A stretch of DNA of 64,000 bases from Streptosporangium carneum. Its GTDB lineage: Bacteria > Actinomycetota > Actinomycetes > Streptosporangiales > Streptosporangiaceae. The stretch lies in NCBI RefSeq assembly GCF_027922005.1, contig NZ_BSEV01000022.1, positions 86,741 through 150,740 of the forward strand. Reading direction: 5' to 3'. Numbering within the stretch: position 1 is the stretch's first letter; every line of letters begins with the position of its first letter. Below the pieces are notes generated by a model that saw only the letters and a program-made list of their open reading frames with translations, did no database searches and was not told the origin of the DNA. The position numbers were made by a program, and so were the translations under genes. Positions 48,124-52,855 of the stretch are shown in pieces.

Positions 48124-49248
48124 TCATCCCCGGCATCGCCCGCATCCCCGGCCCTCGCCGTACTCGACGAAGACGAGCTGGTCGGGGGCGATCAGGTTGA
48201 CGCCGTGGATGAAGTTCGCGCCGATCTCGGGGACACCCGTGAGGATCCTGACGACCGCGTTCGCGACCAGGTGGCCGGAGATCCCGGCCGAGGCGGCCGT
48301 CACGCCGGGACCGCCGAGGTCGACGGAGAAGCCTCGGGAGTCGGCGTGCCGGGGGGACTCCAGATCCCTGCGCCGCTCCTGCGCGCTGACGACGCACTCG
48401 TAGCAGAGCCCGCGCCCTGGAAGGAAGACGCCGACGGTGACGAACGGGCCGTTGTAGCCTCCGCCCACCCAGGGCAGGCCCGCCGCCGCGCACGCCCTGC
48501 TCGTCCACACCCTGATCCCGCCCGGCCCTCGGGGCTCGTCGGCGCACAGCGCCACGACGTCGTAGCCCGCGATGAGCCCGGCCAGGTCCTCCTGGGAGGT
48601 GGTGCGCGCCCTCGCCCCGGTGATCCGCACGTCGGAGTTGAGGGCGCGCAGCCGTTCCAGGGCGGCCTCGGCCTTCGGCCTGCCCACGTCCCGCTCGGAG
48701 TAGAGGACCTGACGGTTGAGGTTGGACAGCTCCACCAGGTCGGCGTCCACGCAGTGCAGGGTTCCGACACCCGAGGCCACCAGGGCCTGCGCCGCGGTCG
48801 CGCCGGTCCCGCCCAGGCCGAGCAGGAGCACCCGGGCCTGCCGCAGGCGGAGCTGGACCTCCCAGCCGTGTTCCCTGGGTGTGAGATCCGCCCAGCGGAA
48901 GAAGGCGTAACTGCGGCTGTAGCGCTCCCGTTCGCGCGGGCTCAGCTCCGCGGGGAGGGCCGCGCCCGCGTCCTCGACGTGGCCGGAGCGCATCAGCTCG
49001 CCGACCAGCTCCGCCGCCTCCGCGAGGGGAAGCCCGGTCAGGCTCCCGGCGATCTCGGCGGGGGTACGGGTGCCGTCCATCGCCCGCAGGGCCTCCCACA
49101 CCAGGCCGTCCGGGTCCTCGATCTCGTGGGCCACACCGTAGATCTGGCCGCCGATCCGGATCCTGCCGTCCGCGAGCCGATAAGTGGCGTGTTCCTTCTT
49201 CACTCTTGGCAGCCGCACGGCGTCTCCAGAGGGCCGGTCCGATGTCAC
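48124..49248 (-). CDS. E1/ThiF-like adenylating enzyme with RRE-like N-terminal domain (candidate RiPP maturase, MccB/PaaA type)
   Basis: 374 codons from GTG 49248. Residues about 15-95 form a small winged-helix-like domain (KEHATYRLADGRIRIGGQIY, VWEALRAMDGTRTPAEIAGS), like the peptide-binding RRE or 'peptide clamp' of RiPP enzymes. The E1 core follows: LLLGLGGTGATAAQALVASG near 140, VDADLVELSNLNRQVLYSE, and GRPKAEAALERL. Two CxxC pairs (C282/C285, C369/C372) should hold zinc. MccB of microcin C and PaaA of pantocin are built this way. No YcaO or ubiquitin-like gene is near. The gene lies 32 bases after a 42-codon peptide ORF in the same operon as an MFS exporter. Confidence 0.85.
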   Translation of the reverse strand: MTSDRPSGDAVRLPRVKKEHATYRLADGRIRIGGQIYGVAHEIEDPDGLVWEALRAMDGTRTPAEIAGSLTGLPLAEAAELVGELMRSGHVEDAGAALPAELSPRERERYSRSYAFFRWADLTPREHGWEVQLRLRQARVLLLGLGGTGATAAQALVASGVGTLHCVDADLVELSNLNRQVLYSERDVGRPKAEAALERLRALNSDVRITGARARTTSQEDLAGLIAGYDVVALCADEPRGPGGIRVWTSRACAAAGLPWVGGGYNGPFVTVGVFLPGRGLCYECVVSAQERRRDLESPRHADSRGFSVDLGGPGVTAASAGISGHLVANAVVRILTGVPEIGANFIHGVNLIAPDQLVFVEYGEGRGCGRCRG

Positions 49249-49280
49249 ACAGGCACCGAACCGGCCGAAACCGCTCGGCG

Positions 49281-49409
49281 TCAGTTGCCGCTGGAGTTGC
49301 TGGCGACGTTACCGGTCGTCTCGACCTTGTCGAGTCTGCGGATGCGGATCCTGGTCCTGGCCTCGGCCACGACCTCGGCGGGTTGCTGGCTCCTGGGGTT
49401 CTCGGCCAT
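49281..49409 (-). CDS. Small ORF (42 codons), candidate precursor peptide ending in Asn
   Basis: ATG 49409 has GGAG 7 bases upstream (ATGGAGTGCGTG); in-frame ATG/GTG codons exist further up. The peptide starts MAENPRSQQPAEVV, continues with a charged RTRIRIRRLDKVETTG segment and ends NVASNSSGN. Codons are strongly G/C-ending, which supports real coding. It sits between the MFS gene and the E1-like gene. A basic leader followed by a Ser/Asn-rich tail with C-terminal Asn resembles MccA-type substrates, where MccB acts on the terminal Asn. This is inference; it might instead be an unrelated small protein. Confidence 0.6.
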   Translation of the reverse strand: MAENPRSQQPAEVVAEARTRIRIRRLDKVETTGNVASNSSGN

Positions 49410-49461
49410 CACGCACTCCATCCGAATCGGTGTTGCTGGTGTTTCCTCCGAGCTGTCCGAC

Positions 49462-50754
49462 TTACTGATGATCATAATGGGAGGCGAGGGAAACGACTTC
49501 AACCCTTCTTTCGGCATTAGTGTGATTTTGACGGTATTTACTTCTGAAGTAGGTCGTGCCCGAAGTAAGCAGTGCTGTCAAAGGCAGGACCACCCCCGCG
49601 AGACCGGCCAGTGTGAGAACCGGCGCGATCCCCAGAACGGCGCCCGCGGGGCCGGTCAGCACCAGACCGAGGGGGGTCAGCGCCGAGGCGGCGATCCAGT
49701 CCAGCGACGTGACACGGGCCAGCCGCTCGGCGGGCACCTCGCGCTGGAGCGACACCACCCACTGCACCGCGAAGACCTCCAGCCCGAACCCGGCCAGGGC
49801 GAAGCAGACGCAGGCGATCCAGGGGGTCTGCGGCAGCCACAGGGCCAGTGGCACCAGTCCGTACACCGTGAGCCCCGCTATCCCCGCGAGCCCTGACCTG
49901 CGGGGTTTCCAGACGATGCTGACGATCCCCCCGAGCAGGCCGCCGACGGACAGCAGCGCGAGGCTGGTCCCGTAGAAGGCGTCACCGCCGAAGTCCTCCC
50001 TGGCCAGAACCGGAAGCAGGACATGGACCGGGGCGATCGTGAGCATGGACTGCAGCGCGGTCACCACGATGACCGTGCCGATCCAGCGCCGCTGCCAGAC
50101 TTCGCGCACGCCCTCCGCGATCTCCCGCCGGGCGGTGGTGCGGGGCGTGCGGACCACCGCGGGCTCCCGCAGGCGCAGCAGGGCGCACAGGCTGAGCGTG
50201 AAGACCCCCAGAGCGGCCAGGAAGGCGGCCCTGACCGAGGCGGTCGACACGAGGAAGGCGCCCAGGCCGGGGCCGGCGATCGCGCCGACACGCCAGGAAA
50301 CGGCGTTCAGGGCCGCGCCCGCCGGTCGTTGCCGCGGTGTGAGCACCGAGCCCAGACACGCCTGGAAGGCGGGGCGGAAGAACGACTCGGCCGCTCCGGC
50401 GAGGAAGACCATCCCGCCGAGCACCCATGCCGACGTCACACCCGACAGGCCGACCGTGACCACGCAGCACAGGAACGCCTGCGAGGCGAGCATCACGTGC
50501 CGCCTGGGCAACCGGTCGGCCCACACCCCGCCGAGAAGCCCGAAGAGGACCAGGGCGGCCCAGCGCGAGGCGAGAACCGCGCCGACCGTGGTGGCGTCGC
50601 CGCCCGCGTTCAGCAGCGAGACGACCACCGCGACGGGAAAGATCTGGTCTCCGGCGACGGAGGCGATCAAACTAACCCAAAGGGTTCGGAACTCGCGGCT
50701 GCCCATCACCGAGCGGGCGAGCCATTGCCGCATCACACTTCGGAGGGCGCTCAT
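49462..50754 (-). CDS. MFS transporter (exporter of the candidate peptide system)
   Basis: 430 codons; ATG 50754, with ATG 50733 (MRQWLARS) as an alternative start. Twelve membrane segments are visible. FGLLGGVWADRLPRRHVMLA is the loop 2-3 MFS motif, and PAGAALNAVSWRVGAIAGPG is the motif-C-like antiporter helix. It resembles EntS-type exporters. It lies 42 bases after the TPR gene and 52 bases before the 42-codon ORF. MccC, the exporter of microcin C, is also an MFS protein, so export of and immunity to the peptide product are plausible. Confidence 0.88.
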   Translation of the reverse strand: MSALRSVMRQWLARSVMGSREFRTLWVSLIASVAGDQIFPVAVVVSLLNAGGDATTVGAVLASRWAALVLFGLLGGVWADRLPRRHVMLASQAFLCCVVTVGLSGVTSAWVLGGMVFLAGAAESFFRPAFQACLGSVLTPRQRPAGAALNAVSWRVGAIAGPGLGAFLVSTASVRAAFLAALGVFTLSLCALLRLREPAVVRTPRTTARREIAEGVREVWQRRWIGTVIVVTALQSMLTIAPVHVLLPVLAREDFGGDAFYGTSLALLSVGGLLGGIVSIVWKPRRSGLAGIAGLTVYGLVPLALWLPQTPWIACVCFALAGFGLEVFAVQWVVSLQREVPAERLARVTSLDWIAASALTPLGLVLTGPAGAVLGIAPVLTLAGLAGVVLPLTALLTSGTTYFRSKYRQNHTNAERRVEVVSLASHYDHQ

Positions 50755-50796
50755 GCTGGTGAATGATGCGCTATTTCCCTGTGGGTAACAAGGTTG

Positions 50797-52641
50797 TCAA
50801 GGATGCTGTAGTGCTTTGCGTATTTCGTCGTCATCGGGGGCCAAGTCAAACGCCCGTGTCAGATCGGCGACCGCCTCCTCCTCGCGTCCCAAGGCGCGCA
50901 GTGCCATCGCCCGGTTGAACAGCAGCACCGGATCCGCGCCCGGCTCGAGAGCGCGGGTGAAGTCGGCGACCGCGCCCTCGGCGTCGCCGGTCTCGAAAGC
51001 CAGCGCCCCCCGGTTGGCCCAGGCCGTCGCCAGTTCCGGGGCGATCTCCAGCGCCCGGTCGAAGGCCGCCCTCGCCCGTTCGGGACGGTCCTGCGCCATC
51101 TCGACCTGCCCCAGCGCGCACAGCAGATACGGGTTGAGCGGATCGAGCCCGAGTCCGGCCTCGGCGTCCGCTCTGGCCCTGCCGTACTCGCCGAGCGCGG
51201 CCAGCAGGCCCGCCCGGTTGGCCAGCCCGTCCACGAACTCCGGGTCCAGCTCGAGCGCGTGGTCCAGGTCGGTGAGAGCTCCCGCGTGGTCGCCGGTGGA
51301 GAAACGGATCTCGGCCCGGTTGTAGTACGGCTCGGGGAAGGGCGGGCCGACCCGCATCGCCGTCTCGTAGTCGGCGACCGCCGCCTCCAGCCTGCCCAGC
51401 CGGTGCAGCAGGTTTCCCCGGTCGATGTAGTAGTCGGGGTAGCCGGGGTCGATCCCGATCACCGTGTCCAGGTCCTCCAGCGCCTCCTCGGGGCGGCCCA
51501 GCATGACGGAGAGCTGCGCCCGGTTGGCCAGCAGCACCATCCGGTGGATCGGGTGCTCGTCCGGAGCCAGGTCCCGCTCCGCCAGGTCCAGCGCCTCCTG
51601 GACGAGCTCCAGCGCCTTGGCGGGGCGGCCGAGCCGCACCTCGACCAGTGCTCTGCCGTTGAGGTCGAAACCCAGCTTGAACGCCCGCTCACGCGGGTCG
51701 GGAAGCAGGGTGGAGATGGCGATCGCCTGGTTCACCCAGGCCAGCGCGGAGTCGAGGTCGCGCAGGGCGGGGTCGTGGTTGCGGACCTTGAGCATCGCCG
51801 TCGAGTAGGCGGCGGCCGCGTGCGTGGCAGGGGAGACGCTCTCGCGCCTGGCCGTGTCGAACAGGGCCTCCGCCTCGCCCTCGCGGCCCAGCGCGCCCAG
51901 TGCGGTCGCGGTGCTGTGCAGCAGCCGCCACCAGGTCCCCGGTTCGGTGTCCCGCGGGTCCGTCAGCGCCAGCGCGCGCAGCCCCAGCTCCGCGACCGCG
52001 TCGTGACAGCCCGCCTCCAGGCACCACTCGACGGCGAAGCGGAACGCCTCGACCGCCCTGTGCGGATCGGTGCCGTGCTCGCGGTGGTAGGGGATCGCGC
52101 CGAGCCGCGCCCCCAGCGTTCCCTCCCGCTCCAGCTCGTCGGCGAGCTCGTCGTGCGCCTCCGGGCTGAGGGGTTCCTCCGGCACGGCGCGCCCGCCGGT
52201 CACCACGGTCAGCAGTTCTGGGCGGATCCGGCGGCGCAGCACCGCCAGCAGTTCCCTGTCGGTCGGGTCGGCGTGGTGAACGTTCTCGACGACGAGCGTC
52301 CTGGGACCGATTTCGGTCAGGTACTCGCGGACGAACTCGGCGATCCCGTTCGACAGGCGCAGGGTCCGGCGGGGCGCGTGGACCAGGATCCGTTCCGCCT
52401 TCGGCAGCAGACCGGCGAGCGACCGGCGTCTGATCGGGATCAGGTCGTGCATGTCAGGCGCCACCGCCCGCAGCTCCGTGTCGTAACGGGCCACGAGTTC
52501 GGGGGGCGCGACGGGAACAAGGGCGGAGACGATCGCGCTCGCGGCCGTGTACGGCCCGCGCAGGCGCCGGTCGGCGTCCACGGGGGACAGGAGCAGGGGG
52601 GCGAGGGGCGGGTTCTCCTGAGGGAACGGTCCCAGACTCAC
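50797..52641 (-). CDS. Tetratricopeptide-repeat protein with a degenerate NTPase-like N-terminus
   Basis: 614 codons from GTG 52641, with an excellent AAAGGAG ribosome site. Residues about 80-170 look like the remains of an AfsR/LuxR-type ATPase (RTLVVENVHHADPTDRELLA resembles Walker B), but no Walker A is present. From about 200 to the end there are some 10 TPR units. The C-terminal ones are canonical (e.g. YYNRAEIRFSTGDHAGALTD, WANRGALAFETGDAEGAVAD). TPR proteins scaffold or bind peptides. Its place directly after the 24-codon ORF suggests it handles the precursor or regulates the operon. No catalytic motif is seen. Confidence 0.8.
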   Translation of the reverse strand: MSLGPFPQENPPLAPLLLSPVDADRRLRGPYTAASAIVSALVPVAPPELVARYDTELRAVAPDMHDLIPIRRRSLAGLLPKAERILVHAPRRTLRLSNGIAEFVREYLTEIGPRTLVVENVHHADPTDRELLAVLRRRIRPELLTVVTGGRAVPEEPLSPEAHDELADELEREGTLGARLGAIPYHREHGTDPHRAVEAFRFAVEWCLEAGCHDAVAELGLRALALTDPRDTEPGTWWRLLHSTATALGALGREGEAEALFDTARRESVSPATHAAAAYSTAMLKVRNHDPALRDLDSALAWVNQAIAISTLLPDPRERAFKLGFDLNGRALVEVRLGRPAKALELVQEALDLAERDLAPDEHPIHRMVLLANRAQLSVMLGRPEEALEDLDTVIGIDPGYPDYYIDRGNLLHRLGRLEAAVADYETAMRVGPPFPEPYYNRAEIRFSTGDHAGALTDLDHALELDPEFVDGLANRAGLLAALGEYGRARADAEAGLGLDPLNPYLLCALGQVEMAQDRPERARAAFDRALEIAPELATAWANRGALAFETGDAEGAVADFTRALEPGADPVLLFNRAMALRALGREEEAVADLTRAFDLAPDDDEIRKALQHP

Positions 52642-52677
52642 CAGTCTCCTTTATGAGGTTTTATGCGTATATGGGGG

Positions 52678-52701
52678 CCGGCGCCCATCGCTGGGCGCCG
52701 G
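52678..52701 (-). terminator. Hairpin between the 24-codon peptide ORF and the TPR gene
   Basis: ccggcgccca (52678-52687) and tgggcgccgg (52692-52701) form a perfect 10-base stem with a 4-base loop, 15 bases past the peptide stop and 36 before the next start. Such partial terminators or processing sites after precursor genes raise the precursor-to-enzyme ratio in many peptide operons. Confidence 0.65.
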
Positions 52702-52716
52702 TTCTGTGACTCGACG

Positions 52717-52791
52717 TCAGCCGACGTGCTTGGGGCTGGCGGCTCCGCTGAGGGTAATCGTGCCGGGCTTGTGAACAATTACTCGCTTCAT
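52717..52791 (-). CDS. Small ORF (24 codons), first gene of the candidate peptide operon
   Basis: ATG 52791 is preceded by GGGAGAGG at good spacing. The peptide starts MKRVIVHKPG, goes on TITLSGAA and ends SPKHVG. It lies between a good promoter and a hairpin, and is followed by TPR, MFS, 42-codon ORF and E1-like genes. Short, basic and first in the operon, it is either the precursor of the modified peptide or a leader peptide that controls the operon. No family is recognised. It is far below usual ORF cutoffs. Confidence 0.6.
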   Translation of the reverse strand: MKRVIVHKPGTITLSGAASPKHVG

Positions 52792-52825
52792 CGCGTGCCT
52801 CTCCCAGAAATAAGAACAAATCGCA

Positions 52826-52855
52826 AGTATTCGCACTAGTCACTCGGGTTGACAA
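52826..52855 (-). promoter_or_regulatory. Candidate promoter of the peptide operon
   Basis: TTGTCA (52850-52855) and AATACT (52826-52831) on the minus strand are 18 bases apart, about 35 bases before the 24-codon ORF. The -10 to ATG segment is AT-rich (gatttgttcttatttctggg), unusual here. Confidence 0.6.

Follow-up and report, generated by a model that had tools for sequence, protein, structure and literature searches.

The locus considered here raises the question of whether two very short open reading frames (ORFs) and three longer genes, which follow one another on the minus strand of DNA from the soil actinomycete Streptosporangium carneum, serve a single peptide pathway. It lies in a stretch of 64,000 nucleotides (assembly GCF_027922005.1, contig NZ_BSEV01000022.1, positions 86,741 to 150,740), called the window at its full length. 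The short ORFs, PEP1 and PEP2, are accompanied by genes for a tetratricopeptide repeat (TPR) protein, a major facilitator superfamily (MFS) transporter and an E1-like (ThiF) enzyme. A preliminary description of the locus had proposed one microcin C- or pantocin-like operon for a ribosomally synthesized and post-translationally modified peptide (RiPP). Our analysis makes it likely that PEP2, ThiF and MFS constitute an actinobacterial RiPP cassette, built on an E1 enzyme fused to a RiPP recognition element (RRE-E1), which stands behind an independent, older PEP1-TPR module and works as a whole by the mechanism proposed below. Gene order, conservation, domains, catalytic residues and modularity are established at the level of sequence. 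The elements are as follows.

52826..52855, minus strand: promoter-like box TTGTCA-N18-AATACT upstream of PEP1, read from the sequence
52717..52791, minus strand: PEP1, 24-codon ORF MKRVIVHKPGTITLSGAASPKHVG, conserved before the TPR gene
52678..52701, minus strand: hairpin CCGGCGCCCA-GCGA-TGGGCGCCGG, a 10-bp GC stem plus loop, between PEP1 and the TPR gene
50797..52641, minus strand: TPR protein of 614 aa, recognized by Pfam, AlphaFold2 model and genus-wide presence
49462..50754, minus strand: MFS transporter of 430 aa, candidate exporter (MFS_1, E 4e-31)
49281..49409, minus strand: PEP2, 42-codon precursor with a C-terminal Asn, IRRLDKVETT at residues 23-32 and then GNVASNSSGN
48124..49218, minus strand: RRE-E1 (ThiF-like) enzyme of 364 aa from the likely GTG (ThiF, E 9e-47, Pfam)

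All of these were found on the minus strand in the order originally described. The intergenic gaps are 75 bases (PEP1-TPR), 42 (TPR-MFS), 52 (MFS-PEP2) and 32 (PEP2-ThiF; 62 to the likelier ThiF start), and such short gaps on one strand make a single operon plausible. The TTGTCA-N18-AATACT box, a candidate promoter, is discernible by eye in slightly altered form in the genus loci. A longer ThiF ORF from the GTG at 49248 (374 aa) is an option, but the start at 49218 is likelier because most homologues start at the GTG of residue 11. A domain scan of the operon proteins found no YcaO, LanM or radical SAM domain, and for these proteins the earlier statement that the operon does without such enzymes holds.

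The case for PEP2 as the precursor of ThiF begins with its recurrence beside the enzyme. A first search used the window peptide alone, without training on other loci. A peptide profile of 15 members, applied to ORFs from the stretches around ThiF and counted where the ORF lay no more than 900 bases from ThiF and on its strand, then gave a PEP2-type ORF in 51 of 61 ThiF loci (60 fetched loci plus the window), upstream in 29 and downstream in 22, a count that is in-sample because the profile was trained largely on peptides from the same loci. These loci contain 6,781 ORFs, of which 58 matched at E < 0.01, and 52 of the 58 satisfied the strand and distance rule; the six outside it were second copies further downstream (~3-4 kb; L042, L044 and L046), matches inside longer ORFs (L048 and L058) and one on the opposite strand (L068). 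The conserved block reads I-R-[RK]-L-[DE]-K-[IV]-E-T-T with variants and is followed by 5-10 residues; the N-terminus is variable, and the last eight residues, VASNSSGN, are identical in the window, L032 and L112. Named carriers include Streptosporangium violaceochromogenes, Planotetraspora, Microtetraspora, Microbispora, Sphaerisporangium and Herbidospora, as well as Nonomuraea, Micromonospora, Labedaea and Glycomyces. In 73 loci scanned from the best 80 of 566 ThiF relatives, a PEP2 pattern that misses variants recognized later matched 26 (L246 doubtfully). When 22 named loci were read by eye, two Streptomyces records carried ETI for ETT, and nothing recognizable as PEP2 was seen in most of the Streptomyces records listed. 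Within the ten-residue block, Glu occupies position 8 in 34 of 36 distinct ThiF-linked blocks and in none of the blocks from 15 PEP1s, six peptides of loci with M50-type protease and TPR genes (M50-TPR peptides) and three of M50-only loci; these blocks were picked and aligned by eye as distinct sequences, with L293 left out of the count.

The enzyme itself is of the RRE-E1 type. A single-sequence search places the pantocin A enzyme PaaA closest among solved proteins (E 2e-27 over residues 14-209), and a profile of 38 relatives searched against the PDB is led by MccB (1e-49) and PaaA (3e-48), with MoeB next (1e-45). The AlphaFold2 model (mean predicted local distance difference test score, pLDDT, 90.5) has MccB (template modelling score 0.70-0.77) and PaaA as its top PDB fold matches, near full length and including the N-terminal domain, at root-mean-square deviations of 5.4-7.1. 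An E1 adenylation domain with its catalytic residues is present: none of D, R-Q, K, D and the two CxxC pairs varies across the 38-relative alignment, the Arg-Gln, Lys and Asp align with those of MccB, and the Zn-type CxxC pairs and ATP/Mg residues are shared with that enzyme. Sequence, profile and fold comparisons thus agree with the earlier assignment to the MccB/PaaA type. The fused N-terminal RRE is indicated by that near full-length fold match and by matches across the family, to PaaA-like_N in 10 of 38 members and to PqqD in 8 of 38 (E <= 0.01), but the window protein alone gives a sub-threshold match (E 0.18), so the RRE-like domain claimed for it stands at the level of the family. The third feature of RRE-E1 systems, a conserved short precursor adjoining the enzyme, is PEP2. 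An MFS gene of the same cluster adjoins ThiF in 11 of the 61 loci, which bears out the proposed MFS neighbor of the E1 gene but leaves its export role a prediction.

More widely, a ThiF profile search of 296 genomes of the phylum at E <= 1e-40 gave one full-length match beyond the genome of the window (G375), the remaining matches listed covering the adenylation part only. A plasmid search with ThiF returned 10 records, four from actinomycetes at 43-51% identity and the others partial, and no record bearing the name MccB or PaaA.

Several neighbors of ThiF genes are recorded as observations in their own right. Locus L214 (Nonomuraea sp. SBT364) carries three tandem PEP2-type precursors upstream of ThiF, with differing C-terminal pieces. 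In the Pseudonocardiales relatives L220, L221, L230 and L209 (46-49% ThiF identity), other short upstream frames contain IEFxE, that of L209 being IEFIEADREATFS; these may represent a second family of precursors for enzymes of this kind. A short frame with VVSFLSSGRIxIL recurs upstream of ThiF in the Streptomyces relatives L205, L222 and L231, and genes of a further cluster (C2), weakly DUF6879-like over a 51-residue piece (E 0.017), lie near ThiF in 18 of the 61 loci.

The other half of the operon has a separate distribution. The TPR protein is present in 16/16 Streptosporangium genomes, with the 15 others at 74-86% identity, and PEP1 begins 146-212 bases ahead of its gene in all 16. Between the window and S. 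violaceochromogenes (L032), PEP1 shows 6 base differences, 5 of them at third codon positions, and a single I/V change; of the 1,104 codon differences counted within the genus, 657 are synonymous and 447 nonsynonymous, and 882 of 1,349 base differences fall at third positions, these counts being pairwise sums and hence non-independent. Both small ORFs are, judged from sequence, more than chance, PEP2 being conserved beside ThiF and PEP1 before TPR. MFS-PEP2-ThiF follows PEP1-TPR in only 3 of the 16 genus genomes (the window, G101 and G203) and, within the stretch covered, is not behind TPR in the other 13. Furthermore, when 24 more TPR loci were drawn from the best matches in the family, 23 carried PEP1 and none of the 24 had MFS or ThiF within 636-804 bases downstream of TPR. 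The earlier reading needs correction here, since the five genes do not form a single conserved unit. In the TPR tree, which covers 10 of the 16 genus genomes, the window, G101 and G203 form one clade (support 100/99), so that one joining event is the simplest account. The TPR protein had been put forward as a new component of the pathway; it recurs with PEP1-type peptides rather than with E1 enzymes.

PEP1 was recovered by pattern in 37 of 39 loci, and G10, L14, G16, A18, S19 and H22 are invariant in all 37; the pattern itself fixes places 1, 2 and 6, and two later-found loci have Ala at place 16. A later check added seven PEP1-bearing TPR loci, and gave no PEP1 at six other TPR loci or at L141, which was rechecked. 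No PEP1-like ORF was seen at L307, L312, L313, L314 or L141; a longer stretch of the same place as L314 (L131) shows a Trp-rich PEP1 variant, and L313 has an M50-type gene with its own peptide upstream (L280). A TPR search of the class (246 genomes, E <= 1e-60) gave 11 genomes with a match; in the two that lie outside the family, the scan used found no PEP1-like ORF. At position 6218 of L131 (contig C1 of the window's own genome), a PEP1-like ORF with a Trp-rich C-terminus, MPVRKMTVRRKSALRLLSGARRLWIEWCW, precedes a TPR paralogue.

A protease gene enters the picture from outside the window, and was beyond the view of the preliminary description because the window has no such gene. M50-type protease genes of one cluster lie near ThiF in 33 of 61 loci, and in the single representative put through a domain scan the N-terminus resembles PqqD (E 0.0013) and M50 matches at E 0.073, both under curated cut-offs, alongside an HELAH motif. 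The M50-type protein of the window's own genome and 13 relatives (at least 41% identity) adjoin a TPR gene by coordinates in all 14 cases, and in 13 of the 14 loci a short ORF, mostly of type MKKIKIRKAGPVRLTAAACSIYKNVS, lies upstream of the M50-type gene. As side observations, L284 (G090:C15) has three 19-residue ORFs, of type MDIEVREVEDIKAT plus 5 residues, upstream of its M50-type gene, and the best match to the window ThiF in genome G090 reaches only E 1.2e-20; several of the M50-type matches in G031, G005, G123, G122 and G108 show one in-frame stop.

The mechanism that we propose would start with the RRE-like domain of ThiF binding the PEP2 leader block I-R-R-L-D-K-x-E-T-T as a beta strand. 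The E1 domain would then adenylate a peptide carboxylate with ATP, and a nucleophile of the peptide would displace AMP to give a ring or another modification. The target carboxylate is most likely the Glu of E-T-T. We prefer this residue because ThiF-linked peptides keep it almost without exception, whereas the listed TPR- or M50-linked kin without ThiF lack it at this position, and because PaaA modifies precursor Glu residues and GrcB links a C-terminal Cys to an internal Glu (PMC12250964; statements about cited papers refer here and below to the portions available). The modified C-terminal piece, about GNVASNSSGN, would be released by cleavage and leave the cell through the MFS protein. The RRE-like M50-type protease probably removes the leader in many relatives, a task that would fall to another protease in the window. 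Upstream, the hairpin would perhaps yield more PEP1 than TPR message, and the TPR superhelix probably binds PEP1 or its product as a receptor or adaptor.

Several observations weigh against this reading. No PEP2-type peptide was found by the profile scan in 7 of the 61 ThiF loci, 47 of the 73 named loci gave no match to the PEP2 pattern, in a sample that includes distant E1 genes, and the L293 peptide, beside a distant ThiF (34% identity), reads RLT and has no Glu. There is no M50-type gene near the window operon; the only M50-type relative in the same genome (27% identity, C12:212024-213136) adjoins a TPR paralogue, and G101 gave no M50 match. The E-T-T block may also do no more than mark the leader for recognition, as the RRE motifs do in PaaP and EnfA, and the product, binding and activity of the cassette are predictions from sequence.

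A broader possibility concerns the kinship of the peptides themselves. In a test set of 12,727 distinct ORFs, the PEP1 profile ranks three M50-TPR peptides straight after the PEP1s (E 2e-4 to 0.015), the first other ORF coming below all three at E 0.085, and a profile of the M50-TPR peptides picks up PEP1s starting at E 0.01, with a single PEP2 at 0.18. With the PEP2 profile, no PEP1 is retrieved and the best M50-TPR peptide comes at E 1.9, and the PEP1 profile retrieves no PEP2 above background. By eye, all three kinds fit one ungapped ten-residue block; since the profiles fail to link PEP2 with PEP1, that kinship rests on the by-eye block and is weak by profile. Additionally, the C-terminal class of the peptides tracks the TPR tree, with four changes for five groups, the minimum, a result that near-copies help and in which the position of two long branches, L130 and L131, is uncertain. 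We regard it as possible, though short of probable, that PEP1, the M50-TPR peptides and PEP2 are one precursor superfamily with an ungapped leader block and interchangeable partners (RRE-E1, RRE-like M50-type protease and TPR adaptor), in which PEP1-TPR is a vertically kept signal or cofactor and not a weapon, the TPR protein is a new peptide-handling component, and the E1 enzyme with the block Glu is one chemistry among them. If true, a superfamily of very short actinobacterial precursors would be read by several types of partner.

The same block, with the one strand and short gaps of the operon and the rank of the M50-TPR peptides next after PEP1, would also fit an account in which one ThiF takes both PEP1 and PEP2 as substrates, with the TPR protein as the scaffold of the pathway. 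This we consider unlikely: PEP1-TPR stands without ThiF behind it in the 13 genus genomes, the 24 further TPR loci show neither MFS nor ThiF in the 636-804 bases covered after TPR, PEP1 has no block Glu, and its profile misses PEP2.

About as unlikely is that PEP1 is an attenuation leader, such that a ribosome on PEP1 governs the hairpin and hence TPR expression. The order of short ORF, GC hairpin and TPR gene suits this account, as does the persistence of the hairpin: a scan that allowed G-U pairs recovered a stem of 10 bp or more at 15 of the 16 genus loci, at L099 it gave a longer upstream stem, yet the same 24 bases are present by eye, and outside the genus L138 is a covarying case in which TCCA pairs with TGGA, both sides being altered. 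PEP1 shows no single-codon run by eye, however, and in its VIHKG subtype it overlaps the TPR start or ends at most ~60 bases from it, without this hairpin. Kindred peptides also precede M50-type genes at other distances, and the tracking of the TPR tree by the C-terminal class tells against the account too.

The microcin C type of chemistry, in which ThiF would activate PEP2 at its C-terminal Asn by adenylation and the MFS protein would export the resulting nucleotide-peptide, appears more doubtful still. The preliminary description names MccC as the MFS exporter of microcin C; the window PEP2 ends in Asn with an MFS gene adjacent, MccB is the nearest solved structure by profile and fold, and Asn ends 23 of the 35 PEP2-type peptides at ThiF identities of at least 50%. 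Even so, 12 of these 35 close relatives end otherwise (S, T, A, Q, M or G), and none of the 16 below 50% identity ends in Asn. With Asn in only 23 of 51 peptides overall, the microcin C logic once drawn from this residue is not a family rule.

Equally doubtful is that PEP1 and TPR are a peptide pheromone and receptor of the RRNPP (Rap family) type, in which a TPR superhelix stands beside a short peptide gene. The likeness lies in the adjoining PEP1 and TPR genes and in the fold: after an N-terminal region with a weak AAA_16 match (E 0.04), the TPR protein is modelled by AlphaFold2 as a superhelix (mean pLDDT 92.8). The best fold matches are, however, the peptide-binding TPR domains of the eukaryotic LGN and OGT, with RapI ranking lower; at the level of models, these matches reflect a common arrangement and imply no function. 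No helix-turn-helix (HTH) was found among the 25 families listed of 27 with Pfam matches at E <= 1, and an export signal in PEP1 is not evident by eye. A different idea, that PEP1 supplies a missing P-loop of the ATPase-like domain of TPR, was dropped by eye, the VIHKG and M50-TPR peptides being without those residues.

A housekeeping role for ThiF in thiamine or molybdopterin activation is extremely improbable and was rejected: ThiF/MoeB models do match by sequence (those listed all under curated cut-offs) and MoeB is close in the profile search, yet the RRE-like N-terminus, the PaaA/MccB full-length folds and PEP2 conservation speak otherwise, and no ThiS/MoaD-like sulfur carrier, the partner by which the earlier proposal might have failed, was matched among the operon ORFs or in the Pfam scan of the operon proteins.

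In the reading that we prefer, the operon unites two peptide systems, PEP1 with TPR and the precursor PEP2 with an ATP-using E1 enzyme predicted to cyclize or tag it. The clear precursor, leader block and near-constant Glu offer a directly testable substrate and residue, and the PEP1 gene is so short that it is easily overlooked in annotation even though its module is in every one of the genus genomes examined. The operon is accordingly a pointer to peptide chemistry worth testing.

Among known systems, pantocin A is the nearest in its RRE-E1 fusion, short precursor and best single-sequence PDB match. In pantocin, Glu residues of the precursor are the modified groups (PMC12250964), whereas the window PEP2 has no Glu-Glu core and a single Glu in the E-T-T block, and an MFS gene stands in place of a PaaB-type 2-oxoglutarate oxygenase or EamA exporter, neither being among the scanned operon proteins. 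Microcin C is approached through the near full-length fold of MccB, the aligned ATP/Mg residues, the two CxxC pairs and the MFS gene, but the window precursor has 42 residues with a conserved internal block, and its C-terminal Asn is not general. The Firmicutes ThiF-like RiPP cyclases GrcB, EnfB and IndF likewise combine RRE-E1 with a short precursor, and the EnfA leader motif (V/I)RKA resembles the I-R-R-L of PEP2; they differ in belonging to other precursor families and in their partners, M16 in ind and radical SAM in grc against the RRE-like M50-type protease common here (PMC12250964, PMC12150305). For GrcB, the C-terminal carboxylate is also mentioned (PMC12250964). With microcin C and pantocin, these make five worked-out chemistries of ThiF-like RiPP enzymes, and none is given for the actinomycete PEP2-ThiF family in the available portions of PMC12250964 and PMC12150305; the cited survey notes further unworked ThiF-like clusters in a supplementary figure, among which this family may be.

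The protease side recalls daptides, in which an RRE is fused N-terminally to an intramembrane (site-2) protease beside short ORFs, with ELExMEAP as the differing precursor motif (PMC10036551), and M50 proteases mature epipeptides and pearlins (PMC10885120). The available portions of these two papers mention no E1 or TPR partner, and those of PMC12710340 and PMC7470986 neither M50 nor PaaA. The peptide strings tried did not occur in the literature searched, and searches for TPR with RiPP and for MccB with actinomycete yielded nothing pertinent. Given the known E1 RiPPs, the daptide RRE-protease fusions and the lack of any paper with these peptide strings, the E1 part of the locus is best regarded as a variation on the known RRE-E1 theme, and the peptide-TPR-protease system as the less familiar of the two.

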